64,000 nucleotides of DNA from Variovorax sp. PAMC26660 (GTDB lineage Bacteria; Pseudomonadota; Gammaproteobacteria; Burkholderiales; Burkholderiaceae_C), in NCBI RefSeq assembly GCF_014302995.1, contig NZ_CP060295.1, forward strand, positions 124,001-188,000. Reading direction: 5' to 3'. The position numbers were made by a program, and so were the translations under genes. The notes under the pieces were generated by a model. The model ran no database searches and had not been told where the DNA came from. It worked only from the letters and a program-made list of their open reading frames with translations. The first letter of the stretch is position 1, and each line of letters starts with the position of its first letter. This document shows positions 4,804 to 57,658 of this stretch, in pieces.

Positions 4804-5300
4804 CTCTTGTGTTTCCTTTGTTCCTTGTTGTGTTGCGGGGCGCTGCTGTTGTTGGGGCGGGTTCGGGCTCGGGTTCATTCGGGGCGCGTGCGAATGACAC
4901 CAGGAGCTCCCCTCCGCGAATGTCCCCCGCTTCGCTCCTCCTTTATTTCGCTGCGGGGAGCACCTGGCGTCATTCGCACAGGGACACGCTGCTGGTGATC
5001 GCCGATCAACAAGTGCTCTGAGCGCTCACGTCGATACGGTGCTCTTTTTAGCTAAATAAAGGAGGAGCGAAGCGGGGGACATTCGCGAAAAAGAACACCG
5101 TGTCGGCGTGAGCGACGCCCTGAACAGCCCTAAACAAACCGCCTCACACCCAGCGTACCCCCGCCAGCCGAACTCGTCCCGACAACGTACCGACACCGCA
5201 CCACCGCAGTCGGCCAATGCAGCAACGCACACTCCTTTTTTGCCGGACGCGTCAGCGCGACGCATACTCGTCCAGCGTCGGATGCAACACAAGGAAGACC
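4804..5300. other. intergenic region with repeat copy A
   Basis: 497 bp between the divergent amidase and YCII genes. Next to the amidase start is a short leader, then GTTGTGTTGCGGGG (4827-4840), a G/T-rich low-complexity stretch, and repeat copy A (4876-5128). The remaining 5129-5300 shows no convincing gene; it must hold the promoter of the YCII gene, whose ribosome-binding site is the AAGGA just before 5301. Confidence 0.8.
4876..5128. repeat. twin-hairpin repeat element, copy A
   Basis: One of three ~250-bp near-identical copies. Hairpin 1 has 25-nt arms (4888-4912 with 4955-4979, two mismatches). Hairpin 2 has arms ending near 5055 and beginning near 5081, extending outwards to about 5022 and 5115. 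The 26-nt sequence in loop 1 (4921-4946) is the exact reverse complement of loop 2 (~5055-5080). In hairpin 2 the pair T5040-A5097 replaces G-C found at the same place in copy C, a compensatory change. No transposase or credible gene lies inside. It sits just upstream of the amidase. Confidence 0.92.
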
Positions 5301-5681
5301 ATGCTCTATGCCATCCTGATCTACGGTTCCGAGTCGGCGGTGGCTGCTTCGGCACCCGGTGCCGAAGAGGAAATGCTCGAGCGCCACACCGACCTGCGCG
5401 ACGACCTGCAAGCGCAGGGCCGGCTCGGCACGGTGCTTCGGCTGATGCCCGACATGGCCACCACGGTGCGCCGCGCCGGCGACATGCACCCGCTGGTCAC
5501 CGACGGCCCGTTCGCCGAAACCCGGGAACAGCTCATGGGCCTCTACACCGTCGAGTGTGAAACCGTCGAGGAAGCCACCCACGCAGCGCACCGGCTGGCC
5601 TTCGAGACGGGCGTGTTCGAGATCCGGCCGATCACCTGGTACGACCCGGGTGTGATCCCGGCGCGCATTCCGCAGGTCTGA
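5301..5681 (+). CDS. YCII-related domain protein
   Basis: 126-residue protein starting MLYAILIYG, of the YCII/COG3795 (DGPF-domain) family: a small ferredoxin-like fold. The family landmark DGPFAETREQLMG is present at residues ~72-84, followed by the C-terminal EIRPI strand. Relatives are often encoded beside an ECF sigma factor, but none is next to this gene; the next gene is a GNAT acetyltransferase 62 bp away. The start is supported by a nearby AAGGA. The biochemical function of the family is poorly known. Confidence 0.87.
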   Translation: MLYAILIYGSESAVAASAPGAEEEMLERHTDLRDDLQAQGRLGTVLRLMPDMATTVRRAGDMHPLVTDGPFAETREQLMGLYTVECETVEEATHAAHRLAFETGVFEIRPITWYDPGVIPARIPQV

Positions 5682-5743
5682 GGCCAGGCCCGGGAGGGGC
5701 TCCCTAGAATCGCGCGGGTCATCCAGAACCCGCCGTACCCCGC

Positions 5744-6364
5744 ATGCCACTGCCGCCCGAGTCCCTGTCCACGCCCGCCCTTGTCGACACGCTGATCGTC
5801 GATCCGTTCTACCTGGCGATTTCCGTCGATTTCGAGAGCGATCTGCCAGCCCGCAAGGCGGTGTTGGCTGCGTACTTTGCGTACTCGCTGGGTGAGGCCA
5901 GCAGGACCGGGCGTTGCGAAACACTGGAAGACCGCGAACTGGGAGCCGCGGCTTGGCTGTTGCCACGAAGCGGGCAGGTGGACGCGCTCGAGTCGGCCGC
6001 AAAGAACGCATTTCTGGCGCGCACCCTGGGCCCGCGCGGCCATGACAACTACCACCGCATCGTCGAATTCATGAGCCCGCACGCGAGCGCCGCCGTGCCG
6101 GCGCAGGCCTGGTATCTGTCGATCCTCGGCGTCTCGCCTGCCGCGCAGGGGCGCGGGCTGGGCGCGAGGCTGCTGGCACCCACGCTGGCCGAAGCCGACG
6201 CGGCGGGCGTTCCGTGCTATCTGGAAACCTTCACGCCGCGCAGCGTGGCCTTCTACGAGCGCTTGGGCTTCCGGCGTGAAGCGAGCCCCCTGGAGCCGGT
6301 CACGAACTCGGTGTACGAGATCATGTGCCGGCCCGCTTCGGTGGCCCGGTCGGTCACCACTTGA
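5744..6364 (+). CDS. GNAT-family N-acetyltransferase
   Basis: 206 residues. The C-terminal half carries the acetyl-CoA-binding motif A (ILGVSPAAQGRGLGARLL, residues ~125-142) and the motif-B-like CYLETFTPRSVAFYERLGF segment. The N-terminal half (residues 1-100) is typical of the variable GNAT substrate side. No membrane or signal segment is seen. The acceptor substrate cannot be predicted. It is probably transcribed alone or with the YCII gene; an AT-richer regulatory region follows before the two-component genes. Confidence 0.85.
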   Translation: MPLPPESLSTPALVDTLIVDPFYLAISVDFESDLPARKAVLAAYFAYSLGEASRTGRCETLEDRELGAAAWLLPRSGQVDALESAAKNAFLARTLGPRGHDNYHRIVEFMSPHASAAVPAQAWYLSILGVSPAAQGRGLGARLLAPTLAEADAAGVPCYLETFTPRSVAFYERLGFRREASPLEPVTNSVYEIMCRPASVARSVTT

Positions 6365-6491
6365 CGCGCACGCCGGCCCTGACTTGTAAATTTCGCAATG
6401 GAAGATACAAATGGGAATACCCGGCAACAATTCCTGAAAATAAGTAAAAACGTCCTACGCGCCTCAATAGACCGATCCAAAATGCCGCCAC

Positions 6492-7217
6492 ATGTCATTT
6501 CTCCAGATCGAAGACGCTGAGCCCGTGTCACTGAGCCCCGCGCTCGTGGTCGAGGATGACCCGGCGATGCAGGAGCGCCTGCGCTATGTGCTGTCCACGC
6601 TCGGCTGCGACGAGCAGTTGATCGCGGTCACCGACAGCGTGGCCGGGGCCAAGCTGCTGCTGGAAGAACATCGCTATGGGCTGGTGCTGGTCGACATCGG
6701 CCTGCCAGACGGCAACGGCGTGGAGCTGATCAACTGGTTGCAGACCCGCCGCCCGGGTGTTCCAGCGGTGGTCATTTCAGCCTGGCGGACCGAAGAAATC
6801 ATCTTTGCGGCGCTGCGCGCCGGCGCCATCGGCTACCTGCTCAAGGAACGCGACGACCTCGAACTGAGCATCGCACTGCGAAGCATCGAACAGGGCGGCG
6901 CGTCGATCGACCCCTCCATTGCGCGCCGCATCATCGCGTGGCTCGCGACCACGCAGAGCCCGGCACACGCGACCACCGAGCTGCCCGATGACAGTGGTGC
7001 CGCGCCCGTCTCGGCGCCGACCACGGCCCTGACGCCGCGCGAACGCAAAATCCTCGAACTGGTGGCGCAGGGGCTGAGCAACCGCGACATGGCCGAGGCG
7101 CTCTCGATCTCCAGGCTGACCGTCGAATGCCACACCAAGAACATCTACCGCAAGCTGGCCGTCAACTCGCGCACCGAGGCCGTCTTTCAGGGGCGAAAGC
7201 ACGGTTTGCTGCGCTGA
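6492..7217 (+). CDS. NarL/FixJ-type response regulator
   Basis: 241-residue two-component regulator. The receiver domain spans residues ~16-130 with the acidic pocket (VVEDD), phospho-acceptor Asp in LVLVDIGLPDG and the conserved Lys in YLLKE. A ~40-residue linker precedes a LuxR-type helix-turn-helix (residues ~178-235: LTPRERKILELVAQGLSNRDMA then RLTVECHTKNIYRKL). The following histidine kinase frame overlaps its 3' end, so the two are almost certainly a cognate pair made by coupled translation. The 127-bp upstream region is AT-richer than its surroundings and must contain the promoter. Confidence 0.93.
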   Translation: MSFLQIEDAEPVSLSPALVVEDDPAMQERLRYVLSTLGCDEQLIAVTDSVAGAKLLLEEHRYGLVLVDIGLPDGNGVELINWLQTRRPGVPAVVISAWRTEEIIFAALRAGAIGYLLKERDDLELSIALRSIEQGGASIDPSIARRIIAWLATTQSPAHATTELPDDSGAAPVSAPTTALTPRERKILELVAQGLSNRDMAEALSISRLTVECHTKNIYRKLAVNSRTEAVFQGRKHGLLR

Positions 7218-9037
7218 TCGGCGCCTGGTTCTTCTTCCTCTTTCTTGCGGCCGGCGCGGCGCTGGCACAACCAGCGCCCGAACTCCACGCCGAAGCCGTG
7301 CGCGGCACCGGTTGGGACGACACCGCGCCGCCTGCCGAAGGCTGGGCGCCCGTCTCGCTGCCCGACAGTTGGGCCACGCGCTGGCCCGACTTCGACGGCG
7401 TGGTCTGGTACCGGCTCACCTGGGACCAGCCGGCGCCGGTCGGCGAAGCCGGCCTGCTGCTGCACTACCTCAACATGGCCGGTGAGGTGTCGCTCAACGG
7501 CGTCCCGATCTCGCGCGACGACAGCCTGGTCGAGCCGCTCACGCGCGGCTGGAACACGCCGCGCTACTGGCTGCTGGCACCGCCGCTGCTGAAGGCCGGC
7601 ACCAACACGCTGCTGGTGCGCGTGTCGGGCTTGTTCGCCTACCAGGCAGGCCTGGGACCGGTCAGCCTGGGCACGCCAGCCGCGATACAGACCGAGTTCG
7701 AGCGCGAGCGCGTCGTGCGCCGCGACCTGCAGGTGTTGGGCCTCGCGGTGAGCGCAGCCGTCTCGGCCTTCTTCGCCGCGCTGTGGGTATTGCGCCGGCG
7801 CGAAGCAGCGTACGGTTGGTTCGCCCTGATGTCGGTGCTGTGGCTGCTGTTCGGCTACAACCAGATCGCGACCAGCCCGTGGCCCTTTGCCAGCAACCAC
7901 AGCTGGCAGGCGATGAACACCTCGCTGCTGCTGGTGTTCGACGTGTCCTACATCATCTTCGCGCTGCGCTTTTGCCAAAGACGCATGCCGCGCCTGGAAG
8001 CCGTTGCGCTGCTGGTCGCCGCGGCCGGCGTGCTCGACCTGTGGATCGCCAGCGGCCCCGCGCTGACCGTGCACCGCGCCATCTGGACCCTGGTGGGCGG
8101 CCTGACGGTCATTGCCGTGAACGGCATCTCGATCATTCACGCCCTGCGCCATCGCGACAGCCCGATGCGCTCGCTCGCACCCTTCATGGCGGTGTCGGCC
8201 CTGACGGCCGGGCACGACCTGCTGGTGTTCACGCAGGTGATCGACAGCAACATCTACTACACGACGATGTCGTCGTACGTGCTGCTGCTGGGCATGGCCC
8301 TGACCCAGGCCGCGCGCTTCGTGCAGAGCCTCAAGCGCATCGAGAACTTCAACAACGAGCTGATCGAGGAAGTGAACGCCGCCAAGGCCGAGCTGGCCAC
8401 CACGCTCGCGCAGCAGCATTCGCTGGAACTGGCCCATGCGCGCATCGGCGAGCGCGTCAACCTCGTGAGCGATCTGCATGACGGGCTCGGCGGCATGCTG
8501 ATCGGCAGCATCGCGACGCTGGAGCGCCGGCCCGAAGACCTGTCGGCGCCGCAACTGCTCGCCATGCTCAAGAGCCTGCGCGACGACCTGCGGCTGATCA
8601 TCGACGCCACCGGCCACAGCGACGGCGCCCTCGCCTTCGGCGAGCTGCTGGTTCCGCTGCGCCACCGCATCTCGCAGTTGCTCGATGCCAACGGCATCGA
8701 CTGCCGCTGGCAGGTGTCGGGCGTCGATACGCTGGAGCTGTCGCCGTCGCACAGCCTGGAGCTGCTGCGCTTCTTGCAGGAGGCGCTGACCAATGTGCTC
8801 AAGCACAGCGCAAGCCGCCGCGTGGACGTGGCCGTGCGGCGCGCGGATGGCGAGCTTCAACTCAGCGTGCGCGACGACGGGCGCGGCTTTGCGGTCGACG
8901 CGGTGAACAAGGCCGACGGAGCGGGCCTGCGAAGCCTGCGGGCTAGGGCGCGGCGGCTGGGGGCTGAACTGCAACTCGACTCCCGGCCGGGCGACACGCA
9001 TGTGGCGTTGCGGATGCCGCTTGCGACCGTCGCATGA
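7127..9037 (+). CDS. 7TM sensor histidine kinase (HisKA_3/NarX-like catalytic part)
   Basis: Up to 636 residues. After a signal-peptide-like segment (ending ALAQ, residues ~27-49) comes a periplasmic jelly-roll domain (~50-180) like that of 7TMR-DISM receptors, seven membrane helices (~195-405), a short coiled coil, the phosphorylation motif DLHDGLGG (~residue 452) and a HATPase_c domain with N-box QEALTNVLKHS and G-box DDGRGF. ATG 7127 is the only ATG/GTG/TTG start in frame and overlaps the regulator gene by 91 bp. A CTG at 7214, overlapping the regulator's stop codon, would give a tighter signal peptide. The ligand is unknown; the jelly-roll suggests a small-molecule or carbohydrate signal. 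Confidence 0.88.
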   Translation: MPHQEHLPQAGRQLAHRGRLSGAKARFAALIGAWFFFLFLAAGAALAQPAPELHAEAVRGTGWDDTAPPAEGWAPVSLPDSWATRWPDFDGVVWYRLTWDQPAPVGEAGLLLHYLNMAGEVSLNGVPISRDDSLVEPLTRGWNTPRYWLLAPPLLKAGTNTLLVRVSGLFAYQAGLGPVSLGTPAAIQTEFERERVVRRDLQVLGLAVSAAVSAFFAALWVLRRREAAYGWFALMSVLWLLFGYNQIATSPWPFASNHSWQAMNTSLLLVFDVSYIIFALRFCQRRMPRLEAVALLVAAAGVLDLWIASGPALTVHRAIWTLVGGLTVIAVNGISIIHALRHRDSPMRSLAPFMAVSALTAGHDLLVFTQVIDSNIYYTTMSSYVLLLGMALTQAARFVQSLKRIENFNNELIEEVNAAKAELATTLAQQHSLELAHARIGERVNLVSDLHDGLGGMLIGSIATLERRPEDLSAPQLLAMLKSLRDDLRLIIDATGHSDGALAFGELLVPLRHRISQLLDANGIDCRWQVSGVDTLELSPSHSLELLRFLQEALTNVLKHSASRRVDVAVRRADGELQLSVRDDGRGFAVDAVNKADGAGLRSLRARARRLGAELQLDSRPGDTHVALRMPLATVA

Positions 9038-9047
9038 ACGCGCGGTC

Positions 9048-11396
9048 CTAGAGTTCCAGCACCAGCCGGCCTTCACAAGCCCGCGAGCAGCACGCCATCA
9101 TCTTGGTGTTGGCATCGCGCTCCGAACGGGTCAGCACCACGTCGCGGTGATCGACCTTGCCGGACAGCACGCGCACTTCGCACGAGCCGCACAAGCCTTC
9201 CTCGCAGTCGCTCTGCACGTCGACATTCGCGGCGCGCAGCGCGGACAGCAGGGTCTGGTCGGGCGGCACGTGGATGACGAGGCCGGAGTCTTTCAGTTCC
9301 ACCTCGAAGGCATGTTCCTTCGACGGGTCCAGCGTCGCGAGGGTCGACTCGAAATGCTCGACGCGCAAGGCGCCTTCAGGCCACGCGGCGCAGCAGGATT
9401 CGAGCGCTTCCAGCATCCGCAGCGGGCCGCAGGCATAGACCTGCGCGCCTGGCATCGGCTGCCCGAGCAATGCCTGCAGATCGTTGCGCCGGCCTTCATC
9501 GCTCGCATGCACATGCAGGCGATCGCCGTGCAACGCGGCCAGTTCGTCGAGCAAGGCCATGCTCGCGCGGCTGCGGCCGCTGTAGTGCAGTTCGTAGTCC
9601 ATGCCCAGCGCTTTCGCGCGGCGGGCCATCGCGCTCACCGGCGTGATGCCGATGCCGCCGGCGATGAAGATGGCCTTCTTCAACGATTCGTCGAGCCTGA
9701 AGTGATTGCGCGGGCCGCGAATGCGCAGCCTGTCGCCCACCTTCACGCGGCCGTGCACCCAGGCCGAGCCGCCACGGCCTTCGGGCTCGTGCAGCACGGC
9801 GATCTCCAGCACGCCGGCTTCGTCGGGGTCGCCGCACAGCGAGTACTGGCGCGACAGTTCGGGCGTGCCGCATTCCACGTCGATGTGCGAGCCGGCGGTC
9901 CAGCGCGGCAGCGACTTGCCGTCGGGCGACACCAGCCGCAGCCTGACGATGCCATCGGCCACCGGCGTCACGCGCTCGACCACCACCGGCCGCGCGATCG
10001 CGCCCCGCGAAGGCTCGCCGATGCGAACCGGCACTTGCACATCGCGCAGGCCGGCGTTGTTTCGTTCGGGGTTGGCAGCCGGGTCCCATTCGACGAGCAG
10101 ATGCTCGGGGCCACGGAACGAAGTGTTCGGCACATAGCTGAAGCGCTGTTCCGACAAGCGCATGTGCGGCAGCCGCCGCGTGAACTCTTCCAGGAAGATC
10201 TGCATCTCCATGCGTGCCAGGTTCTTGCCCATGCACTGGTGCGAGCCGTAACCGAAGGTCAGGTGGTCGCTCGCGTTGTCGCGGCGGATGTCGAACAGGT
10301 CGGCATCGGCGAAGTGCCCTTCGTCATGGTTGGCCGACGAGGTGACGATCAGCAGCCGCGAGCCGGCCGGCAGGTCGACGCCGTCGATCTGCGTGTCGGT
10401 CGTGACGAGGCGGCGCCATGCAGCCACCGAGCCGTTGTGGCGCAGGCACTCTTCGACCGCGTTGGGAATGAGCCCCGGGTCTTCGCACAGCTCCTGCCAC
10501 ACCTGCGGGTGCTGCAGCAGCAGCTTCATCGCATTGGCGGTGGCATTGGCCGTGGTCTCGTGCGCGGCCACGATGCCGGCCATCATCATCGAGTGCAGGT
10601 ACGAGTCGGTCACCACGTCGGGTTGCAGCATCTGCTTGCGGATGCCGTACTGCATCCAGCCGGGCGCGTCGGGGTCTTGCCGCATCTTGTCGAGCACCTT
10701 GCCGGCGTACTGCCAGAAGTTGCCCACGGCATGCGCCACGGCCACCTGTTCTTCGGGCTTGGGACGGCCCCAGGTGTTGACGGTGTGCGCAATCGAATAC
10801 TTGCGCAGCGTGTCCATGTCTTCCTCGGGCACGCCGAGAAAGTGCAGCGCCACCGTCAGCGGAATTTCCCACAGCATCTGGTCGACGAGGTCGGCCTTGC
10901 CGTCGTCGATGAAGCGGTCGACGTAGCTGCGGGCCAGCTCGCGCACCATCGGCTCGTGGTGCTTGAGTTCTTCAGGCGTGAACGGGTCCATCAGCGCGCG
11001 GCGGCGCGGCATGTGGGCCGGTTCGTCTTCGTTCACCAGCGTGCGGTTCAGCGCGAAGCCGTAGCTTGCGAGCACGGCGTTGGCCTCCTCGCCGGTGGGC
11101 GTGATCTTCTCCAGCGCGTTGGACGGGCTGAAGGTGATGTTGTCGCGAAACACCGCCTTGATGTCCGCATAGCGCGTGATCACCCAGTAGCCCAGCTTCG
11201 GGCTGTAGAAGATCGGCTCCTGCTCGCGCGCCCAGCGCACGTACTCGGGCGGGTCCTGCTGGTAGCCGTCCTCGAAGGGATCGAAGCCGGCGGCGCGCTG
11301 GCTCACGGGGCAGCCGGTGGGCGTGCGCTCGGCAGAGAGCGGGCCGTGCGCAACAGGGCAGCCGGAAGCGCGCGAAGGGGTGGCGGTGTCGGGCAT
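9048..11396 (-). CDS. self-sufficient cytochrome P450 fused to a phthalate-dioxygenase-type reductase (CYP116B-like)
   Basis: 782-residue fusion. Residues ~30-445 are a P450: I-helix AGIVAAHETTAN, ExxR helix region, and heme ligand Cys in FGYGSHQCMGKNLAR. Residues ~470-690 are an FMN/NADH reductase (RQYSL flavin motif, GGIGITPV, YACGP). Residues ~695-782 form a plant-type [2Fe-2S] ferredoxin (CEEGLCGSC plus a distal Cys). The order heme-FMN-2Fe2S is that of CYP116B enzymes, which pass electrons from NADPH/NADH to oxygen within one chain and hydroxylate or dealkylate small aromatics. It lies 10 bp after the Bug receptor gene, so both should share the promoter facing iclR. The native substrate is unknown. 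Confidence 0.95.
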   Translation of the reverse strand: MPDTATPSRASGCPVAHGPLSAERTPTGCPVSQRAAGFDPFEDGYQQDPPEYVRWAREQEPIFYSPKLGYWVITRYADIKAVFRDNITFSPSNALEKITPTGEEANAVLASYGFALNRTLVNEDEPAHMPRRRALMDPFTPEELKHHEPMVRELARSYVDRFIDDGKADLVDQMLWEIPLTVALHFLGVPEEDMDTLRKYSIAHTVNTWGRPKPEEQVAVAHAVGNFWQYAGKVLDKMRQDPDAPGWMQYGIRKQMLQPDVVTDSYLHSMMMAGIVAAHETTANATANAMKLLLQHPQVWQELCEDPGLIPNAVEECLRHNGSVAAWRRLVTTDTQIDGVDLPAGSRLLIVTSSANHDEGHFADADLFDIRRDNASDHLTFGYGSHQCMGKNLARMEMQIFLEEFTRRLPHMRLSEQRFSYVPNTSFRGPEHLLVEWDPAANPERNNAGLRDVQVPVRIGEPSRGAIARPVVVERVTPVADGIVRLRLVSPDGKSLPRWTAGSHIDVECGTPELSRQYSLCGDPDEAGVLEIAVLHEPEGRGGSAWVHGRVKVGDRLRIRGPRNHFRLDESLKKAIFIAGGIGITPVSAMARRAKALGMDYELHYSGRSRASMALLDELAALHGDRLHVHASDEGRRNDLQALLGQPMPGAQVYACGPLRMLEALESCCAAWPEGALRVEHFESTLATLDPSKEHAFEVELKDSGLVIHVPPDQTLLSALRAANVDVQSDCEEGLCGSCEVRVLSGKVDHRDVVLTRSERDANTKMMACCSRACEGRLVLEL

Positions 11397-11406
11397 GGCG
11401 GTCAGG

Positions 11407-12375
11407 TCAGTCGAGCGTGATCTTCAGGTCGCGAATCAGCTTGTGCCAGCGCGTGGTTTCGTTCTTCAGCAGCGCGGCGTACTGCGCGGGCGTGTTGCCC
11501 ACGGGCTCCACGCCGAAGTCGACCATGCGCGTGCGCACCGCGGGCTCGTTGATGGCCGCGACGATCTGGCGGTTGAGCGTGTTCACCACCTCCGGCGGCG
11601 TGGCCGAGGGCACCACCACGCCGACCAGCGCGGCGGCCTCGACGTTCTTGTAGCCCAGCTCGGCGAAGGTCGGCACGTCGGGCAGTTGCGGCAGGCGCGT
11701 GGGGTTGGCCACAGCCAGCGCGCGCACCTTGTTGCCCTTGATGAAGCCGGCGCCGGCGGCCAGGTCGACCATCATGGCCGGCAGTTGGCCGCCCACCACG
11801 TCGGCCAGTGCCGGCGCCGCGCCGCGGTATGGCACGTGGACCATGAACAGGCCCGCCTCCACCTTCAGCAGTTCCATCGCCAGGTGATGCGGACTGCCCG
11901 CACCTGGCGAGGCGTAGTTGATGCCACCGGGATTGGCCTTCGCCTTGGCGATGAAATCCTTGGCCGTGGCAAAGCCGGAGTTGGTGCCGACCACCAGGAT
12001 CATCGGAAACTTGCCCATCAGCGTGACGGGCGTCAGGTCTTTGGTGGGGCTGTAGCTCAGCGACTTGTAGAGCGCGGGGTTGAAGACCAGCGTGCCGTTG
12101 TCGGCCGACAGGATCGTGTAGCCGTCGGCCGGCGCGCGTGCGGTTTCCGAGGCGGCCAGGGCGGTGTTGCCGCCGGGCTTGTTGTCCACCAGAACCGGCT
12201 GCGCGACCTGCATGGCCAGCGTCTGGCCGACCGTGCGCGCCAGGAAGTCGGAGCCGCCGCCGGCTGCGTAGGGAACGATCCAGCGGATCGGTTTGGCCGG
12301 ATAGGTCTGCGCGCTGGCGCTTGCCGCGACGACAAGGGAAAGGACTGCAAGGCCGCTGGCAATGTGCTTCTTCAT
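11407..12375 (-). CDS. Bug-family (TctC-like) periplasmic solute receptor
   Basis: 322 residues with a clear signal peptide (cleavage near ASAQ, residue ~23) followed by the Bug/TctC fold: the N-terminal YPAKPIRWIVPYAAGG strand-loop and the conserved TNSGFATAKDFIAKAK and GAGSPHHLAMELL segments. Such receptors bind carboxylates or aromatic acids for tripartite tricarboxylate transporters, but no TctA/TctB membrane gene is nearby. This is common in Burkholderiales, where receptor genes far outnumber transporters. First gene of the receptor-P450 operon, divergent from the IclR gene. It may capture or sense the compound the P450 acts on. Confidence 0.93.
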   Translation of the reverse strand: MKKHIASGLAVLSLVVAASASAQTYPAKPIRWIVPYAAGGGSDFLARTVGQTLAMQVAQPVLVDNKPGGNTALAASETARAPADGYTILSADNGTLVFNPALYKSLSYSPTKDLTPVTLMGKFPMILVVGTNSGFATAKDFIAKAKANPGGINYASPGAGSPHHLAMELLKVEAGLFMVHVPYRGAAPALADVVGGQLPAMMVDLAAGAGFIKGNKVRALAVANPTRLPQLPDVPTFAELGYKNVEAAALVGVVVPSATPPEVVNTLNRQIVAAINEPAVRTRMVDFGVEPVGNTPAQYAALLKNETTRWHKLIRDLKITLD

Positions 12376-12402
12376 GGGGTGTCTCCGGATTGGATATTGT
12401 GT

Positions 12403-12438
12403 ATTGCGTAAGTATCATACGCATTGCGTAATTATGAT
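12403..12438. promoter_or_regulatory. tandem operator between the bug-P450 operon and iclR
   Basis: Two 16-bp near-identical direct repeats, ATTGCGTAAGTATCAT (12403-12418) and ATTGCGTAATTATGAT (12423-12438), begin exactly 20 bp apart, about two helical turns. The palindrome GCGTA-N7-TACGC (12406-12422) spans the first. The site lies 28 bp from the receptor start codon in a 130-bp divergent region. The likely ligand is the adjacent IclR protein, since IclR dimers typically bind such paired sites. Binding is inferred. Confidence 0.6.
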
Positions 12439-12505
12439 TCGCGGATTTACCCTTCCTCCTAGGCGACCCGGCGCCACCGATCCGAGCACCTAACATGCAG
12501 GCGAC

Positions 12506-13327: not shown

Positions 13328-13343
13328 GACCGAGAGAGCGGGA

Positions 13344-14168: not shown

Positions 14169-14345
14169 GCGTACTCCTTGAAAGAGCGGCAATTATCGCG
14201 ATGGCACAGGTCAGGTGATGTTCAGGTGCGGGCGATGAATCGACACATCCGGCCCGCAAGATACCCAGTTCAGGTGATGTTCGGGCACGGCGCATTGACA
14301 CATATTTCAAAGTGACCATTCATCTGCGTCCGAAGGAGTTTTGCA

Positions 14346-15884: not shown

Positions 15885-15896
15885 GAAGTCGGCGGC

Positions 15897-47319: not shown

Positions 47320-47321
47320 CA

Positions 47322-48199: not shown

Positions 48200-48354
48200 G
48201 CGGGGAATTCTCGCGAAATTAGCCCTTGGGGCCGGCCAATTTCGTCCCTGCGGGGCACCGCTCGTCACAAAGCGGGGGCGATCCATCCCCTTGCAGCCCT
48301 CGGCCAGGGCTGCGGGCCCGAGCATCGCGGCTTCTTCGCTTCGAGGAGCTTGCG

Positions 48355-49960: not shown

Positions 49961-50195
49961 GGAAGGTCTCCTTGGCGTGGCGATGCGGGTTGGTGATGGG
50001 TACGGGGCACTCTAAGAACCGCAGGCTCTGCACGTCGTCGCGCGGGTGACGGACAACGCTTTTGCGGTTGCATTGGCGACAGCGACAACGAACGTCGCAC
50101 CCTGGCGAAAGTTTTTTGACACCGCCTTAACCCCGTTCCGCAAGCCCGGCCGTATGAGTGGAGACAAACCCACTCACTTCCTCCGAAGGCCCTTC
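49961..50195. other. intergenic region between thioesterase and DUF4139 genes
   Basis: 235 bp of divergent spacer. A frame is open on the plus strand from 50046 but has no family-like sequence before ATG 50196. No operator or hairpin stands out. Confidence 0.5.
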
Positions 50196-51833
50196 ATGAA
50201 AGCACCGTCCTCCACCCTTCTTCTGCGCGCCACCGTCGTTGCCGCCGGCTGGCTGGTCCTGAGCGCCAGCGCCCAGGTGCCGGGCACAGCAGCCGACAGC
50301 TCGCGCATCACCCAGGTCAAGGTCTACCCCGGCAGCGCCACGGTCGAGCGCGTCGCGCGCATCGCGGCGGGCAGCCGCTCGGTCACCTTCGCCTGCCTGC
50401 CCGCGGGGCTGGACGTGCAGAGCCTGCAGGTGTCGGCCGACGCCTCGGTGCGCGTGGGCGAAACCTCGGTGCTCAGCGAGGCGCGCGAACTGTCGGCACG
50501 CTGCTCGACCAGCGCGCTCGACGGCCGCATCCGCGAGCTGGAAGACCAGAAGGCCGCGCTGCAGGCCGAGACCGATGCGCTGGGCATGGTCACCGGTTAT
50601 CTCAAAGGCCTGTCGGGCGGCAGCGGCGAATCGGCCCAGGGCGCACGCGCCCCACTGGATGCACGCAACCTCGCCGCGATGACCGAGGCGATGCGCCGCA
50701 CCGGACAGGACTCGCTGCTCAAGCAGCACCAGATCCAGCGCAAGCAGACCGACATCGACCGCCAGCTCAACCCGCTGCTGGCCGAGCGCACGCGCTCGCA
50801 GGGCAACGGCGGCCAGGTGGTGGCCGTCACCGTGACGCTGGCCGCCAGCGCCGATGCCGACATCAAGCTCAGCTACCAGGTCAACGGCCCCGGCTGGACG
50901 CCCACCTACCGCGCGCTGCTCGACACCAACACGCGCAAGGTGCGCATCGAGCGACAGGCACTGGTGGCGCAGGCCACGGGCGAAGATTGGCGCGGCGTGA
51001 AGTTGGTGTTGTCCACCGGTCAGCCGCGCCGCGAAACCACCGGCCGCACGCCGGGCGCATGGCGCATCGGCATCGAACCGCCGCCGCGCAAGCTGGCCGC
51101 GCAGGCCGATGAGGTCTACATGGCGGCACCGGCCGCGCCTGCCATGGCACCGATCGACGCCAAGCAGGCCATCAGAGAACGCCGCGAGCCGCTGTTCGAC
51201 GTGAGCGTGTTCGACAACAGCTTCGCGACTGAATTCGCGGTGCCGCAAAGCATCGACGTGCCCTCCAACGGCCAGCGCGTGACGATGGCGCTGGGCCAGC
51301 ATGAAGACACCGCCAAGCTGGCGGTGCGCACCAGCCCGCGCGTGGACACCAGTGCGTTCCTGGTCGCCGAACTCCCGCAACCTGCGGGCGTGTGGCCGGC
51401 CGGCCCGATGCAGCTTTATCGCGACGGCAACTTCGTGGGCAGCGGCCGCTGGACTGCGCCGAGCGACGCAAACCTCACGCTGTCTTTCGGTCGCGACGAG
51501 CTGGTACGGGTTCAGGCCGAACCCGAGCGCGACAACCAGGGCACGGGCGGCTTTGCGGGTTCTCGTGCCGAACGCAAGGTGCAGCGCGCCTATGTGGTCG
51601 AGAACCGCCACCGCACGCCGATTGCGGTGCAGGTGCTGGAGGCCGCGCCGGTGTCGGTGGACGAGCAGGTGCGCGTGGCGTCGCAGTTCTCGCCACAGCC
51701 CGCAGAGCTGGCCTGGAACAAGCAGCCCGGGCTGACGATGTGGCGCTTCGACCTCGACGCGGGCAAGACCGCGCGCGTGACGGCCGACTACACCGTCAGC
51801 TATCCGAAGGACGCCCGGCTGCAGATGCGCTGA
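50196..51833 (+). CDS. exported DUF4139/MuiA-like protein
   Basis: 545 residues. Signal peptide (cleavage near SASA-Q, residue ~27), an N-terminal DUF4140 domain (VKVYPGSATVERVARIAAG, ~35-135) including a coiled coil (ELEDQKAALQAETDAL), and a C-terminal DUF4139 domain (~220-540; SYQVNGPGWTPTYRALLDTN, VLSTGQPRRET, LVAELPQ, AYVVENRHRTPIAVQVLE). The family includes the Azotobacter mucoidy inhibitor MuiA; its biochemical role is unknown. Start ATG 50196 matches the signal peptide. Repeat copy B lies 40 bp downstream. Confidence 0.88.
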   Translation: MKAPSSTLLLRATVVAAGWLVLSASAQVPGTAADSSRITQVKVYPGSATVERVARIAAGSRSVTFACLPAGLDVQSLQVSADASVRVGETSVLSEARELSARCSTSALDGRIRELEDQKAALQAETDALGMVTGYLKGLSGGSGESAQGARAPLDARNLAAMTEAMRRTGQDSLLKQHQIQRKQTDIDRQLNPLLAERTRSQGNGGQVVAVTVTLAASADADIKLSYQVNGPGWTPTYRALLDTNTRKVRIERQALVAQATGEDWRGVKLVLSTGQPRRETTGRTPGAWRIGIEPPPRKLAAQADEVYMAAPAAPAMAPIDAKQAIRERREPLFDVSVFDNSFATEFAVPQSIDVPSNGQRVTMALGQHEDTAKLAVRTSPRVDTSAFLVAELPQPAGVWPAGPMQLYRDGNFVGSGRWTAPSDANLTLSFGRDELVRVQAEPERDNQGTGGFAGSRAERKVQRAYVVENRHRTPIAVQVLEAAPVSVDEQVRVASQFSPQPAELAWNKQPGLTMWRFDLDAGKTARVTADYTVSYPKDARLQMR

Positions 51834-52155
51834 GGCAGCGCTCGGGGGATGGTTGTGCGGTTAGATGCGGGGTCATTCGGGGTGCGTGCGAATGACACCA
51901 GGAGCTCCCCTCCGCGAATGTCCCCCGCTTCGCTCCTCCTTTATTTCGCTGCGGGGAGCACCTGGCGTCATTCGCACAGGGGCACGCTGCTGGTGTATCG
52001 CCGATCGACCACCGCCCTGTCCAACGCTCGCGCCGATACGGGGCTCTTTTTCGCGAAATAAAGGAGGAGCGAAGCGGGGGACATTCGCGAAAAAGAGCAC
52101 CGTGTCGGCGTGAGCGACGCCCTGAACAGCAGCAGCGCCCAAACCCGGAAAACCC
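51834..52155. other. convergent intergenic region holding repeat copy B
   Basis: 322 bp between the stops of the DUF4139 and TonB-receptor genes. Apart from repeat copy B (51874-52130) there is only a G-rich lead-in. Small frames here arise from the repeat itself and are not credible genes. Confidence 0.8.
51874..52130. repeat. twin-hairpin repeat element, copy B
   Basis: Hairpin 1: arms 51886-51910 and 51953-51977. Hairpin 2: a long stem of about 30 bp closing around the second loop. The 26-nt loop sequences are identical to those of copies A and C and fully complementary to each other; complementarity can extend to 37 nt. Unlike the other copies it lies between gene ends, so it cannot be a leader for a start codon here. 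Same orientation as the other two copies. Confidence 0.92.
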
Positions 52156-54339
52156 TCAGAAGTCGAACTTGGCCGACAACTCAAAGGTCCGTCGCGGCGC
52201 CAACAGCACCTGGCTCGTCGCGCGACCCGCCCAGGTAGCGTAGAGCTTGTCCGTCAGGTTACGCACGCGGAAGGTCAGCAGTGCCTTCTGTAGCCGATAG
52301 CTCACGGCCGCGTCCATGGTGGTGTAGCCGTTGATGCGAATCTGGTTGGCGTTGTCCGTGAACATGTGGCCGGTGCGGTTCAAGGAGGCGAAGTACTCGA
52401 ACCTCGAACCATCAGGCCGATAAGTCGCGAAGATATTGGCCACGCGCTCGGGCACGTTCGGCGGCGTCTTGCCCACGCGCGAAACGTTGCCCGCTTCGAT
52501 CAAGCTATCGAAGCGCGCATCTAGCGCCGCGAGATTGCCCGCCAGCGTCCATTCGCGCGTTGGCCGCCACACGGTCGACAACTCGATGCCGCGCGAAGAC
52601 TGGCGCCCGTTGTTCACCGTATTGGCGACATTGTTCGGATCGCGCGAGAGCACGTTGTCCAGCTCGATCTTGTAGACCGCTGCCGTCCACTCCAGGTTGG
52701 CTTCGGGAATGCTCTGCTTGAAACCTACCTCCGCTTGCTTGCCGCGTGACATCGGGAACGTCGCGTTCGACGCCGACAGCAGGAACAGCGAGTTCACCGG
52801 CAGCGTGGCGTTGGTGTACTGCGCGTAAATGCTCGACTGCGGCGTGATGTCGTACACCGCGCCGAACCGACCCGAGGTCGAGCGGTAGCTGGTGTCGAAG
52901 CGGTTGAGCGTGCCCAGGTTCAGATCGAGGATGCCGCGTTGCACCTCGGTGCGGTCGTGGCGCAGGCCGCCAACCAGCGTGAGGTTGCGGATCGGCTTGA
53001 GCGCGTCTTCCACGAAGACCGACGTGACCTTCACGTTCGAGGTGGTGTTGGTGCGATTGCCGCCGCCCACGCTCAGCGCGGGGTTTTCGTCGAACAGGCC
53101 CACGTACGGGTTGAACACCGACACCCGCAGCGCATTCGCCGTGCTGGCGCTGCTGTTCGAGAAACGGCGCTGGCTGCCGAAGCGCGTTTCGCTGTATTCG
53201 CCGCCGATCACGAAGCGGTTGTCCATGCCTGCGAGCGTGCCCTTGTGCGTGGCGTCGAAGCGGTTGAGCCAGAAGTCCTGATCGTGCGAGATCATCGTCT
53301 GGTCGCGCCCGATGTTCCCCGGCTGCTCGAAGGCCGCGAACTCCGAGTTGCGGAACATGCGGTTCGACTTGTTGGCCGAGAACTCGTTGCGCCAGGACCA
53401 GCCGCCATCGAGCTGCCCCGTCAGGCGCGCGCGCAGCCAGTAGGTTTCGGACGAGTTGTCGTCGTCCAGCACGTTGTAGTTGGCGTGCGTCATGCGCCGG
53501 TCGATCACGCGGCCGTCGGGTGTGCTGGCCACGCCGGTGGGTTGCGTGGCAAAGCTGCGCGGCACCAGCGGCGTGCCCCAGTAGGCCTGGTTGTTGTCAC
53601 GCAGGTAGTCGAAGGCCAGGTCCAGTTTGACCGAGCCGCCGAAGTCGACCATCAGCCCGCTGGTGAAGTGGTCGATGCGCTCGCCGTTGCGATCGATGGT
53701 GCCCACCTTGGTGTCGTTGCGGCTGTAGTCCAGCCGGTAGGCGCTGGCATCGCCGAGGGCGCCGCCGAAGCCGAAGGCCGCGCGCGTGGAGCCGTAGCTG
53801 CCGTAAGACAGCAAGGCTTCCTTGTGCGGGTTGTCGCGGTCGGGCCGCTTGGTCACGAAGTTGACGACACCGCCAATGGCGCCTTCGCCGTCGAGCACCG
53901 AGGCCGGGCCTTTCAGCACCTCGATGCGGTCGTAGTTCCAGGTGTCCTGCACCCGGTTGACCACGCCCGCGCCGGAGGTGCGCACACCGTCGTACAGATA
54001 CATGATGCTCGTGAAGCCGCGCGTGGACAGCGTGGTCGGTGACGACGGTGGCCCACCGCCCGACAGGCCGGCCATGCCGCGCAGTGCTTCGCTGAAGGTG
54101 CGCGCGCCGCGCTGCTGGATCGCGTCCTGCGACAGAATTTCGACCGAGGCCGGCGTCTCGCGCACCGACAGGCCGAGCCGCGACGCGGTGCCGCTCGATT
54201 CTTCGAGGTGCAGGCTGTTGGCATCGCGGCTGCCTTCGATGGTGACGGTGCCAAGCTCGGCATTGGCTTGCTGCGCGTAGGAAGACTGGAAGACAGTGGC
54301 GGCGGCCACTGCCATGGCCGTGCGGATGAACGGGGTCAT
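52156..54339 (-). CDS. TonB-dependent siderophore-type outer-membrane receptor
   Basis: 727 residues. Signal peptide (MTPFIRTAMAVAAATVFQSS, cleavage near YAQ), then a plug domain (~40-160; LGLSVRETPASVEILSQDAI, VLKGPASVLDGEGAIGGVVN) and a 22-strand barrel ending in the terminal Phe of ELSAKFDF. It imports a metal-chelate using TonB energy. No N-terminal signalling domain, so it does not itself control a sigma factor. It follows two ABC-2 permease genes and an ABC ATPase on the same strand; the nearby Zur-type repressor suggests a zinc chelate, although most homologues carry ferric siderophores. Confidence 0.93.
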   Translation of the reverse strand: MTPFIRTAMAVAAATVFQSSYAQQANAELGTVTIEGSRDANSLHLEESSGTASRLGLSVRETPASVEILSQDAIQQRGARTFSEALRGMAGLSGGGPPSSPTTLSTRGFTSIMYLYDGVRTSGAGVVNRVQDTWNYDRIEVLKGPASVLDGEGAIGGVVNFVTKRPDRDNPHKEALLSYGSYGSTRAAFGFGGALGDASAYRLDYSRNDTKVGTIDRNGERIDHFTSGLMVDFGGSVKLDLAFDYLRDNNQAYWGTPLVPRSFATQPTGVASTPDGRVIDRRMTHANYNVLDDDNSSETYWLRARLTGQLDGGWSWRNEFSANKSNRMFRNSEFAAFEQPGNIGRDQTMISHDQDFWLNRFDATHKGTLAGMDNRFVIGGEYSETRFGSQRRFSNSSASTANALRVSVFNPYVGLFDENPALSVGGGNRTNTTSNVKVTSVFVEDALKPIRNLTLVGGLRHDRTEVQRGILDLNLGTLNRFDTSYRSTSGRFGAVYDITPQSSIYAQYTNATLPVNSLFLLSASNATFPMSRGKQAEVGFKQSIPEANLEWTAAVYKIELDNVLSRDPNNVANTVNNGRQSSRGIELSTVWRPTREWTLAGNLAALDARFDSLIEAGNVSRVGKTPPNVPERVANIFATYRPDGSRFEYFASLNRTGHMFTDNANQIRINGYTTMDAAVSYRLQKALLTFRVRNLTDKLYATWAGRATSQVLLAPRRTFELSAKFDF

Positions 54340-54386
54340 TGGATTGCTTCTGATGGCTGAAAAGAAAAACGGAATCGAATCGGCAG

Positions 54387-55862
54387 CTACGCGACCGAGA
54401 AGCGGCGCAGCCGCCACGCGGCCACACCGAACAGCAGCAGGCTGGGCAACAGCAGTTGCAGCACGGCCAGTACGGCCTGGTGGCGCATGAGGCTGGCGGG
54501 TTCTTCCTGCCATGCGAAGGCGGGAATGCGGTCGAAATCTGTGGGCATCAGCGCATTGCGTGCCTCGATGCGCGGGAAGAAAAACGCCTTCCACGCCTCG
54601 TGGTACGCCACCGTCTGCGCGTCAAAGCGCGCGTGGCGCCGTGCGCCGGTGCCGGCCAGCGCGGTCATGCCTTCGTAGGCCACCGCCGCTGGCGACACCA
54701 CGCCGAAGCGGCCCAGCAGCACCTGCTGATGCGCCTGCTGCGCCTCGAAGCGATCAAGCTCTGGACGAATGGCTTCGTCGACCTCGCGCTCGATGGCGTA
54801 CATGGCCAACGCACGCCCGGCTATTTCGATCTTGCCGTCGCGCGGCACGAGGATCGCGCCACGGCCGACGTGCTGGTAATCGGCGCTCAACAGGTCCGCG
54901 TGCCGCTTCATCGCCTCGGCGGTGACGACGCGCTGGCGCGTGGCGAGTTCGGTGCGCGAAGGCGCGGGGCTGGCCTGCGTGACGGCGAGGTTCAGCAGCA
55001 CCGGCGCCACCAGCACCAGCAGCACCCACGCGATGACCAGCACCATCGCATTGGTCGCCGACGAGGCACCGAAGGCATTGACCGCCACCACCAGCGCGAA
55101 CCAGAACAGCGCATACGCACCCACCAGCAGCGCCCACCAGAACGTGGCACCGCCGACATCGCCCGACGCATCGACCCAACCCACCTGCCGCGCGATCAGC
55201 AACACCGCCACCGGCAGCAGCACGGCGGCGCGCACCGACAGCTTGCCCGCGAGCAGCGTGCGCAGGCGCAGCGGTTGCGACAGCAGCAGGCGCAGGGTGC
55301 CGTTCTCGCGCTCCGCCGACAGCAGGTTGTAGCTGAGCGCGAAGATCAGCAGCGGCAGCAAATAGACGATGACGAAGGCCAGGTCGAAGTGACCGCTCAT
55401 CAGGTGCCAAGGGCTCTCGATGTCGCTCGGGTTCATGAACACCACGCGGCTCTGGTTCGTGACCTCGTACTGGCTCGGGAACAGATCGCTCTGCCCCAGC
55501 GCCACCGGCCCCAGCGGCGCGGTCGGCAAGATCGCATGATGGCCGCCGTAGCTGCTCGCCATGCGCGAGGGATCGGCCGGGTTCTGGAACGGCGTGGGCT
55601 GCGCGGTGCCCGCGAGGATGGCTTCGAGCTGCACGCGCTGTGCGGCGCGGGTGTCACGGTCAGCCTGCGCGACGGCTGCCTGCGCGCGGTCGCGGTGCGC
55701 GGTCTGCAGCAGGCCGTTGCCGAGGGCATAGGCCACCAGCAGCAGGAACAGCGCACCGACGATCCAGAGGCCGCGCTCGGCGAGCATCAGCCGGCATTCC
55801 TGGCGCATCACGGCCAGCAGGCGCCGGCCCTGGGAAGGTTGAAGAGGGATGGTCATGCTCAT
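54387..55862 (-). CDS. ABC-2-type permease with large periplasmic loop (DUF3526-like), second subunit
   Basis: 491 residues. One membrane helix near the N-terminus (~30-50), a large extracytoplasmic domain (~55-165), five more helices (~165-300) and a second large domain before the final helix. SAERENGTLRLLLSQPLRLRTLLAGK is the typical coupling loop of ABC-2 permeases. Start ATG 55862 (MSMTIP) with a GAGGG upstream; ATG 55856 is possible. It lies 10 bp after the sister permease gene. Cargo unknown; in similar loci these pumps sit with TonB receptors for metals or copper proteins. Confidence 0.87.
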   Translation of the reverse strand: MSMTIPLQPSQGRRLLAVMRQECRLMLAERGLWIVGALFLLLVAYALGNGLLQTAHRDRAQAAVAQADRDTRAAQRVQLEAILAGTAQPTPFQNPADPSRMASSYGGHHAILPTAPLGPVALGQSDLFPSQYEVTNQSRVVFMNPSDIESPWHLMSGHFDLAFVIVYLLPLLIFALSYNLLSAERENGTLRLLLSQPLRLRTLLAGKLSVRAAVLLPVAVLLIARQVGWVDASGDVGGATFWWALLVGAYALFWFALVVAVNAFGASSATNAMVLVIAWVLLVLVAPVLLNLAVTQASPAPSRTELATRQRVVTAEAMKRHADLLSADYQHVGRGAILVPRDGKIEIAGRALAMYAIEREVDEAIRPELDRFEAQQAHQQVLLGRFGVVSPAAVAYEGMTALAGTGARRHARFDAQTVAYHEAWKAFFFPRIEARNALMPTDFDRIPAFAWQEEPASLMRHQAVLAVLQLLLPSLLLFGVAAWRLRRFSVA

Positions 55863-55872
55863 GCTCGCCCTC

Positions 55873-57273
55873 TCACAGCGCACGCTGGCGCACGGTGGCA
55901 AAGGCCGCGAAGGCAACGGCCAGCAGCAGCGCCACGCACAGCACCGCGAGGCTGCGCGCCTGGTGCAGCAGCGCCCATCCCGCTCCCGGCGGGTGGTAGT
56001 CGAAAGGCGGCACGGTGGCCCACAGTTCGTGCGGCGCCTGGTAGGCGAAGTGGCGATCGCCCAGCGGATCGGCATGCGCCACGAGGTCCTTGCTCATCAG
56101 GTCCTGGATGTCGCGGCGATGCAGTTCGGCCTCGGTCGTGAAGCTGCGGTGGTGGGCGAAATCGGTGCCGGCCATGCCCATCGAGAAACTGCGGATCGCG
56201 AGAATGGGCAGCAGCAGGCCGCTCCACTCCTGCACTGTCTGCTGTCGCTCCCAGGTGTTCCAGAGGCGGCCGTAGTGGCGGTCGTACACGGCGTAAGAAG
56301 ACTGGTCGTCGAGTTGCAGCGCCAGGCCCCACTTGGAGAGCGGTACGTCGCGGCCCCAACGCTCGGTGGTGCCGAAGTTCTTCTGCCAGACCTCGTCGGA
56401 CACGGCCTTGCGCTCGGCATTCAGTGCCTGATCGAACTCCAGCCGCGTGGGGCTGGGGAACCAGGCGCGCGACAGTTCCGACAGCACGCGCGGCGCCATC
56501 ACCGCCTGCCCGATCCACAGCGCGAGCAGCACGGTGATCGCCATGCGCGAGGTGGACGAGGCGGCCGACACGCCCAGCACCAGGAACACGAAGATGCCGA
56601 GGTAGATGGCGTAGCCGAAGGCCCACGCGGCGAGCCGCAGCAGCGCGTCCAGTCGCTCGCCCGGACCTGCACCGACAGCCACCGCGATGGTCGCGATGAT
56701 TGCGGCCGGCACCAGCAGCACTGCCAACGAAACCGCGAGTGCCAGTGCCTTGCCGCCCAGCAGGCGCAGCGGCGGAACGCCCAGGCTCAGGGTCTGGCGC
56801 AGGATGCCTTGCTCGCGTTCGCCCGCGAAGGCGTTGAAGCCCAGAACGATCACCAGCAGCGGCCCGAGCACCTGCAGGATCCAGCCGACCGACAGGTTGC
56901 CGAAGCGCTGCAGGCCGGTCGCGTCCTGCGCGGCGTTGAACTTCACTTCGCTCTGGCGATGCGCCTGCAGCCACACGGTGCTGCCGATGTAGGGATTGAT
57001 GCCCGGGTCCATCATGGCGAGCGCGGCTTCAGGCTTGAAGGCATGCATGCCCTGGTGCGCGGCGTCGTGCGGATGGCGCTTGTCTTGTTGCAGCCAGTCG
57101 CGGTAGTCCATGGCTTGTGCTGCGTGCTGTTCAGCGCGCGCATCGCGCTGGTGTGCCCAGCCCACTGCGAGTGCGGTGAGGAGCAGAACGAGCACCAGTC
57201 CGCCGGCCCAGTAGAGGCGCCCGTCGCGCAGGCGTTCCAAAAATTCGCGTCGTGCGATCCAGTTCAGCGACAT
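55873..57273 (-). CDS. ABC-2-type permease with large periplasmic loop (DUF3526-like), first subunit
   Basis: 466 residues, same plan as the following gene: N-terminal helix (~22-40), large domain (~45-130), helices ~130-275 with AGEREQGILRQTLSLGVPPLRLLGGK as coupling loop, a second large domain and a final helix. It should pair with the sister permease and the ATPase encoded upstream. A 385-bp gap containing repeat copy C separates it from the ATPase gene, which is unusual within an operon; the repeat begins about 18 bp before this start codon. Confidence 0.87.
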   Translation of the reverse strand: MSLNWIARREFLERLRDGRLYWAGGLVLVLLLTALAVGWAHQRDARAEQHAAQAMDYRDWLQQDKRHPHDAAHQGMHAFKPEAALAMMDPGINPYIGSTVWLQAHRQSEVKFNAAQDATGLQRFGNLSVGWILQVLGPLLVIVLGFNAFAGEREQGILRQTLSLGVPPLRLLGGKALALAVSLAVLLVPAAIIATIAVAVGAGPGERLDALLRLAAWAFGYAIYLGIFVFLVLGVSAASSTSRMAITVLLALWIGQAVMAPRVLSELSRAWFPSPTRLEFDQALNAERKAVSDEVWQKNFGTTERWGRDVPLSKWGLALQLDDQSSYAVYDRHYGRLWNTWERQQTVQEWSGLLLPILAIRSFSMGMAGTDFAHHRSFTTEAELHRRDIQDLMSKDLVAHADPLGDRHFAYQAPHELWATVPPFDYHPPGAGWALLHQARSLAVLCVALLLAVAFAAFATVRQRAL

Positions 57274-57658
57274 ATCAGTGATTCATCTCGCGTTGTGTTG
57301 CGGGGTGCTTGTGTTCGGGGGCTTGGGTTTTGGAGGCTTGGGGTTCGGAGCGGGTGCATTCGGGGCGGGTGCGAATGACACCAGGTGCTCCCCTCCGCGA
57401 ATGTCCCCCGCTTCGCTCCTCCTTTATTTCGCTGCGGGGAGCACCTGGCGTCATTCGCACAAGGGCACGCTGCTGGTGATCGCCGATCAACAAGTGCTCT
57501 GAGCGCTCGCGCCGATACGGGGCTCTTTTTCGCGAAATAAAGGAGGAGCGAAGCGGGGGACATTCGCGAAAAAGAGCCCCGTGTCGGCGGGAGCGTCGCC
57601 CTGAAGAACAGCGGCGACCAGCAACACAAAACAGACGAAGACGAAGAGGACGCGTCAT
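57274..57658. other. intra-operon gap holding repeat copy C
   Basis: 385 bp between the ABC ATPase stop and the permease start on the same strand. It holds GTTGTGTTGCGGGG (57292-57305), a G/T-rich stretch, repeat copy C (57357-57612), and GCAACACAA (57621-57629), an inverted partner of the TTGTGTTGC at the left end. No credible gene. Confidence 0.8.
57357..57612. repeat. twin-hairpin repeat element, copy C
   Basis: The most regular copy. Hairpin 1: arms 57369-57393 and 57436-57460 with one mismatch. Hairpin 2: perfect 20-bp core, 57517-57536 with 57563-57582, extending outwards with few mismatches to ~57503 and ~57597. The hairpin-2 loop (57537-57562) is the exact complement of the central loop of hairpin 1. 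It interrupts the ATPase-permease operon. Confidence 0.93.

Follow-up and report, generated by a model that had tools for sequence, protein, structure and literature searches.

A dispersed doublet of structured hairpins in Variovorax, probably a new REPIN-like repeat family

Miniature inverted-repeat transposable elements (MITEs) of the ERIC and NEMIS type are 70–300 bp long, have terminal inverted repeats (TIRs) of 15–30 bp, generate target duplications, fold as RNA, adjoin genes, and can influence mRNA stability. REPINs, as portrayed in PMC3116915, are extragenic inverted doublets of palindromic units that show compensatory changes and have two alternative folds. The competition between a long hairpin and a clover-like fold is drawn there, and in GI REPINs the starts of the two 16-mers are 71 bp apart. 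According to the account in PMC3733652, the TIR repeats of TIRtrons are often dimers, some of them self-complementary, REPs lie mainly downstream of genes, and a GGGGWSAS motif is reported at the TIRs of tyrosine transposases. The same article (PMC3733652) lists ERIC and NEMIS among the MITEs that function at the RNA level; its main text makes no mention of Variovorax, Acidovorax, Comamonadaceae, or Xanthomonas. Here, we describe a non-coding element of about 250 bp that occurs three times in a 64,000-nucleotide stretch of Variovorax sp. PAMC26660 (positions 124001–188000 of its single-contig 7.39-Mb genome, G000; hereafter the window). The second of its two long hairpins is an inverted homologue of the first and lies about 45 bp away.

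The unit is structured and has a near-invariant tip. It is dispersed through the genome, is present or absent at corresponding sites of related genomes, is uniform within a genome, and has a preferred direction relative to genes. These properties make it probable, with ample room for doubt, that the element represents a new non-autonomous, non-coding, dispersed repeat family of REPIN-like type that is mobile and has a directional role at transcript ends. The listed, mainly open-access literature on Variovorax repeats or hairpins and on Comamonadaceae MITEs contained nothing on the element. The family was not recognised in the first-pass annotation of the window, and Rfam likewise gave no matches in the window and only sub-threshold matches in the element and 17 related loci.

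Anatomy and covariation of the hairpin unit

The three window copies follow the plan A-B-A' then C-B'-C', in which A/A' and C/C' are hairpin arms and B and B' are the loops. They occupy the coordinates at which the first-pass annotation had placed them, as follows.

4876..5128, + strand: copy 1 core, with a type I hairpin at about 4888–4979 and a type II hairpin at about 5023–5113; complementary loop stretch of 34 nt (4915–4948); between divergent genes, the exception among the copies
51874..52130, + strand: copy 2 core, with a type I hairpin at about 51886–51977 and a type II hairpin at about 52026–52115; complementary loop stretch of 37 nt; between convergent genes
57357..57612, + strand: copy 3 core, with a type I hairpin at about 57369–57460 and a type II hairpin at about 57505–57594; complementary loop stretch of 37 nt; between tandem minus-strand genes, with the type II hairpin adjoining the stop codon of the upstream gene

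Each half of the element is a hairpin of 80–90 nt. From the outside inward, the P form of the unit has a sequence-variable outer stem of at least 20 bp, then an internal loop (GCA/GGA) that is replaced by full pairing in some hairpins, and a short apical stem that is mostly GCGAA/TTCGC and elsewhere GCGGC/GCCGC, GCGAC/GTCGC, GGGAC/GTCCC, or others. The tip consists of an internal loop, (A/G)TNAAGGAGGAG against CGGGGGACA, followed by a small terminal hairpin of variable sequence. This split module comprises 18 bases, and comparison among species characterizes the tip as a near-invariant unpaired purine module on a variable, covarying stem. Outside the core, the arms are GT-rich on the left and CA-rich on the right. 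Complementarity between left and right arms is no greater within a copy (11.87) than between copies (11.83), and both values exceed the shuffled value of 9.9. Given this equality, the arms resemble a family feature in decay rather than a covarying stem.

Covariation was examined in 38 diverse hairpins. These derive from 402 hairpins that were selected by a loose motif plus at least 4 of 5 apical pairs and thinned by similarity to 41, of which L233 (one arm unpaired), L263 (starting with Ns), and L076 (altered apical stem) were left out. The proposed structure pairs 90.2% of the cells, compared with 69.8% after shuffling and 40–43% when slid by 1–3 columns. Double-change cells number 235 versus 75.7 in shuffled sets (standard deviation 8.8), a count reached in none of 500 shuffles, and these double changes fall at 26 of the 31 pairs. 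Covariation beyond chance, the lack of which the first-pass annotation named among its refuting conditions, is thus far above both the shuffled and the slid controls. Within the genome of PAMC26660 alone, covariation is weaker. It is clear for the type II stems, whose double-change cells number 26 when shuffled sets have 13 at most, but not for the type I stem, in which pairing reaches 96.1% and the best shuffled set reaches 95.9%.

The first-pass annotation had proposed that the two loops, being exact complements over 26 nt in all copies and up to 37 nt in two, could form a kissing complex or switch between alternative folds. The complementarity is indeed exact and extends to 37 nt in copies 2 and 3, but in copy 1 it is 34 nt rather than 26 (lengths taken from the sequence by eye). 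In addition, a 22-base loop core occurs once on each strand of every copy, giving six occurrences in the window; 100 shuffles produced none. An RNA switch that works through full loop complementarity would be served by these 34–37 nt. It would also be served by the minimum-energy RNA fold of the whole element, in which B and B' pair to form one long hairpin. For the consensus, this long hairpin reaches −131.9 kcal/mol on the + strand and −144.9 kcal/mol on the minus strand, whereas two local hairpins reach −113.2 and −113.7 kcal/mol. Because the long hairpin is the computed minimum, more stable by 19 to 31 kcal/mol, competition between the folds is physically plausible. However, both hairpins are the same unit in opposite orientations, and the complementarity of B to B' follows automatically from inverted duplication. 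Of 97 doublets of PAMC26660, 90 have matching mini-hairpins in their two loops and seven have differing ones, whereas only 13 of 98 doublets from other species have a match. The differences in the other 85 indicate that conservation does not extend to full pairing between the loops, and it is the local pairing that compensatory changes have kept. Of the original proposal, a repeat family with no Rfam match above threshold, the covariation, and two competing computed folds are supported, whereas loop-loop complementarity as a conserved device is not. The way in which the sequences have changed speaks for the local hairpins rather than for the long B–B' hairpin. The loops may have a kissing or switching role, yet as the explanation of the element a loop-based switch is very improbable.

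Dispersal, site occupancy, and uniformity of copies

The first-pass annotation would have been refuted by a lack of copies beyond the window, which is clearly not the case. Genome-wide, a 31-base loop piece gives 168 forward and 169 reverse matches (at most three mismatches) and its reversed control gives 0 and 0, which corresponds to about 168 copies in 7.39 Mb. At least 40 copies are near full length at 93–100% identity, as found by scoring 40 of 221 first-look candidates. The fetched loci of this genome contain 92 complete doublets, including the three in the window, with a loop-to-loop distance of 135–140. As these doublets are divided into 46 per direction, the single orientation (+) attributed to the three window copies is correct there but is not a rule. 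Beside the doublets are six solo loop matches, two of which are the halves of one split copy in L050; in most of the remaining ones the second hairpin is present though diverged. The spread along the chromosome is uneven, with at least 27 + strand loop matches in 447 kb (G000, about 2,487,700–2,934,800) compared with 11 elements in the 400 kb at 55–455 kb. A minority of the copies (L051, L052/L324, L087, and L323) have a second hairpin with a stem (GGTGTGCTCTGCGCAG) or a longer mini-hairpin typical of other species.

In a sample of 61 genomes, DNA matches were found in 31, namely 30 of the 37 same-genus genomes (PAMC26660 included) and one weak match elsewhere. This search used the sequence of PAMC26660 as the query and scored the best 12 or fewer candidates per genome, such that diverged copies may escape. 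Exact motif matches in named genomes (80 listed stretches among at least 120) come mostly from Variovorax, with others from Hydrogenophaga, Pseudorhodoferax, Xylophilus, and metagenome-assembled genomes. Of 399 genomes from the family, 181, representing 81 of 141 genera, match a covariance model at E 1e-5 or better; the weak end of these matches may include unrelated long hairpins. A stricter test, the exact split motif AAGGAGGAGN{4,34}CGGGGGACA, identified 18 of 399 genomes in the order (seven in family f1, nine in f13, and two in f21; reversed control, 0). In the phylum, where the reversed control had three matches in all, it identified 12 of 398 genomes, which are the same seven of the own family, four in f57, and G964. 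Family f57 belongs to another order of the same class. The single match in G964 is at chance level, and the fetched sequence has no such hairpin fold. Among the places listed, the f13 matches are mostly in inverted pairs and those of f21 and f57 partly so; the fetched f13 and f57 matches are long hairpins of the same type on unrelated stems. Three plasmid records match, with no annotated feature beneath the match, and among 16 matches in viral contigs a real hairpin is present only in L403, L405, and L413.

Two further arrangements were observed in these searches. In G442 (L330–L340), the motif search found a single hairpin in 10 of 11 loci. Outside the hairpin, the copies share a flank about 85 nt long that stops near GGGCCGAAAGC. 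Some adjoin GGGTCAGGTCTTGC repeats, and several are near contig ends. In G099 and G131, a single module hairpin is inserted in frame in a Mur-ligase gene (L360, about 1500–1580; L380, about 1500–1530), where it contributes a short peptide of variable sequence. In Pfam, the L380 frame has matches to three Mur ligase domains, and the L360 frame resembles Mpl by eye.

An 18-base module that is near-fixed across distant bacteria amid covarying surroundings points to a binding partner. The tip module may be the recognition site of a trans-acting factor that binds the folded single strand, and this factor could be either an enzyme that moves or copies the element in trans or an RNA-binding protein. 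A bolder proposal takes the tip, (A/G)UNAAGGAGGAG - hairpin - CGGGGGACA, as a new structured motif, possibly a two-layer G-quadruplex between helices, that is recognised by a conserved factor. Selfish or domesticated doublets would carry it as directional 3'-end elements across beta- and gammaproteobacterial families. We regard this proposal as doubtful, and the two-layer quadruplex is conjecture based on the letters of the tip, which is rich in G (GGAGGAG and GGGGG).

Comparison with related genomes provides evidence for presence and absence at individual sites. For two of the window copies, the whole stretch without counterpart could be delimited as follows.

51835..52151: copy 2, core and arms; no counterpart in G016 and G007 (limits approximate)
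57274..57662: copy 3, core and arms; no counterpart in G033, G016, and G014 (limits approximate)

Between matching flanks, G016 and G007 have 5 and 9 bp unaligned at the copy 2 site, and G033, G016, and G014 have 6, 13, and 14 bp at the copy 3 site. Across 400 kb compared with G033, there are 11 elements in PAMC26660 and one match in G033. One site is shared, at which G033 retains one hairpin only; six sites have conserved neighbours without the element, and four are not comparable. Two of the six element-free sites (G000 175873 and 422568) have a different palindromic repeat (CCGTTCGG..CTGAGCTTGTCGAAG...) in G033, as if repeats of various kinds could land, or be tolerated, at such gene ends.

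In rRNA-like concerted evolution, repeat copies are alike within a genome and different between species. The same pattern is found here. Core identity is 84.3% at shared sites (18 pairs of full doublets between PAMC26660 and other species, at 14 sites), 83.5% between random cross-species copies, and 93.9% among paralogs, such that copies at the same site resemble each other about as much as any cross-species copies do and paralogs are more alike. Both flanks are shared in 69 locus pairs, many of them cross-species with the element in both, although some are one locus fetched twice. The direction of the element is kept in 17 of the 18 shared-site pairs, which says little about descent, given that direction is biased in any case. 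The single pair of opposite direction is L018_1550 and L227_1942. The 60-bp arms beside the core are mostly unlike at shared sites (means of 65.8% and 65.1% versus 61.7% at random). In the L092–L217 pair, the arms are 90% and 80% alike, with 88% identity in the core and 94% to paralogs of the own genome; at the shared site 243415, the arms are alike by eye and the cores are of each species' own type. These two cases suggest in-place homogenisation at about two sites. At the remaining shared sites, re-insertion at the same gene end may equally well account for the pattern.

Position and direction relative to genes

Neighbouring genes were called by our own codon-bias heuristic. Only one of the 96 copies examined in PAMC26660 is inside a called frame, in agreement with the first-pass remark that the copies carry no credible gene. 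Among the 68 that could be classified, 53 are between tandem genes, 14 between convergent genes, and one, window copy 1, between divergent genes, compared with 139, 51, and 51 background gene pairs in 400 kb (divergent versus rest, Fisher p = 1.5e-5). A stop codon faces the element in 67 of the 68 copies versus 190 of 241 background pairs, and the core lies a median of 51 nt from the stop codon that faces it (quartiles, 37 and 62). In tandem pairs, the type II hairpin is nearest the upstream gene in 45 cases and the opposite holds in eight (p = 2.4e-7).

Other genomes have the same direction in tandem pairs (35 versus 5; p = 1.4e-6), with 13 convergent and one divergent case. This set consists of 54 classifiable doublets, after 14 of ambiguous type and those without callable neighbours were left out, and is not fully independent of the set from PAMC26660 because some sites are common to both. 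Among further loci, mainly outside the genus but including a few from Variovorax, 44 classified clusters comprise 29 tandem, 13 convergent, and two divergent ones (23 more were unclassified). Single hairpins in tandem pairs number three and two, too few for a preference between P and Y.

These patterns suggest that the folded hairpins may serve as an RNA barrier, stabiliser, or attenuator that works in one direction on the upstream transcript at its 3' end, and that selection or targeting may keep the elements just after stop codons. With about 170 copies oriented at gene ends, one unannotated structured repeat could affect numerous transcripts in this common soil genus.

The post-stop position and the direction bias, seen in PAMC26660 and in other genomes alike, would also be expected of a host-beneficial RNA element in 3' untranslated or intercistronic regions, selected for mRNA stability or attenuation and with its mobility long past. 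The near-invariant module under variable stems and the presence of different species' elements at the same intergenic sites are in line with such an element. However, six of 11 sites are element-free in G033 despite conserved neighbours, which indicates that the element is dispensable at any one site, and seven of 37 same-genus genomes gave no match. We consider a primarily host-selected element unlikely and favour a mobile, REPIN-like repeat.

Search for a mobilising enzyme and comparison with known systems

If the element were a true REPIN or TIR repeat, it would be moved in trans by an IS200-like tyrosine transposase (RAYT or TIRYT). The plan is alike, being an extragenic inverted doublet in which a long hairpin competes with a clover-like fold in the manner of the REPINs depicted in PMC3116915. 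The module half GGGGACA resembles the GGGGWSAS motif given in PMC3733652, which adjoins many of the Y1 (IS200-like) transposase loci examined, partly as inverted repeats, and 35 of 38 same-genus genomes have one match to a Y1 gene. Nevertheless, the module (at most one mismatch per half) is absent within about 1.5 kb of the Y1 transposase at all 39 loci. A PF01797 match is missing in four of 20 chosen carrier genomes (G081, G292, G617, and G035, the last a single-contig genome), and all seven same-genus genomes without an element match carry a Y1 gene, although one of the seven has a completeness of just 62% and the search could have overlooked diverged copies. Among 206 hairpin counts, in which hairpins of two-element loci were counted twice, the GTAG tag never occurs on the 5' side and its complement occurs twice on the 3' side; CGTC occurs five times and its complement 49 times, the latter within the usual GCGACGCC end. 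Furthermore, the Variovorax copies mostly have GGGGACAT, a misfit at the last S of GGGGWSAS. RAYT as the mobiliser is unsupported by the Y1 loci and carriers examined, and we judge a true REPIN or TIR repeat to be an unlikely identity of the element.

The transposase gene of PAMC26660 has GGGGTCAG downstream, and the Y1 gene at L125 1471–2166 has GGGGTCAGA downstream. Some hairpin pairs enclose about 0.7–2 kb instead of a short spacer, namely L050 4515–6277 (in PAMC26660), L320 2256–4319, and L195 4576–5404. Six small cargo frames of L050 and L320 were compared with Pfam, and none matched a transposase family (one is YCII-like); the L195 cargo was inspected by eye only. An autonomous element with a gene between its hairpins gained no support from the L050 and L320 frames. 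As an alternative for the L320 cargo, integron-like gene cassettes were assessed by visual reading alone.

Several observations weigh against a mobile, REPIN-like repeat that acts directionally at transcript ends. First, no mobilising enzyme was found among six cargo proteins searched against Pfam and other neighbours viewed at most by eye. Target-site duplication has no signal, with direct repeats scoring 7.10 in the flanks of the same copy and 7.11 in the flanks of different copies. At the copy 3 site, G007 and G017 have arm-like remnants without the core, and absence in a relative may reflect loss instead of lack of gain. In-place homogenisation also appears to be confined to about two sites. 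For the structure, the type I stem within PAMC26660 has no excess of double changes (14 versus a shuffled maximum of 18), and the apical stem was favoured by the selection of hairpins because at least 4 of 5 apical pairs were required. For the gene context, 27 of the 96 copies in PAMC26660 were unclassified, and other genomes have a more relaxed spacing between stop codon and core (median 32; quartiles, 20 and 53). Finally, both the transcription of the element and its role at transcript ends are putative.

Comparison with described systems places the element nearest to REPINs. By description, ERIC/NEMIS-type MITEs are similar in size, in RNA folding, and in their place beside genes, and differ in their 15–30-bp TIRs and in their target duplication, for which no signal was found here. 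The uniformity of copies is like that of rRNA under concerted evolution, whereas the element is dispersed and non-coding and in-place homogenisation is suggested at about two sites. With the TIRtron TIRs and untagged REPs of PMC3733652, as portrayed there, the element shares placement downstream of genes, dimers, and a module part that is GGGGWSAS-like, but its module is beside none of the 39 tyrosine transposase genes examined.

The likeness to REPINs extends to the inverted doublet (92 full doublets), the extragenic position, the compensatory changes, the two folds, and the lack of coding capacity. However, the element is about 250 bp long, compared with the 71 bp between 16-mer starts given for GI REPINs in PMC3116915, and each half is itself a hairpin of 80–90 nt with a near-invariant split tip module. 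It also differs from the REPIN/RAYT system in having no GTAG tag, no module beside any of 39 Y1 transposase loci, and no Y1 match in four of 20 carriers. As it departs from REPINs in the tag, the neighbouring transposase, and the presence of the latter in all carriers, we file the element as a new family that is REPIN-like. The identity of its binding partner would show how repeats may spread and remain uniform without the RAYT transposase that explains REPINs.

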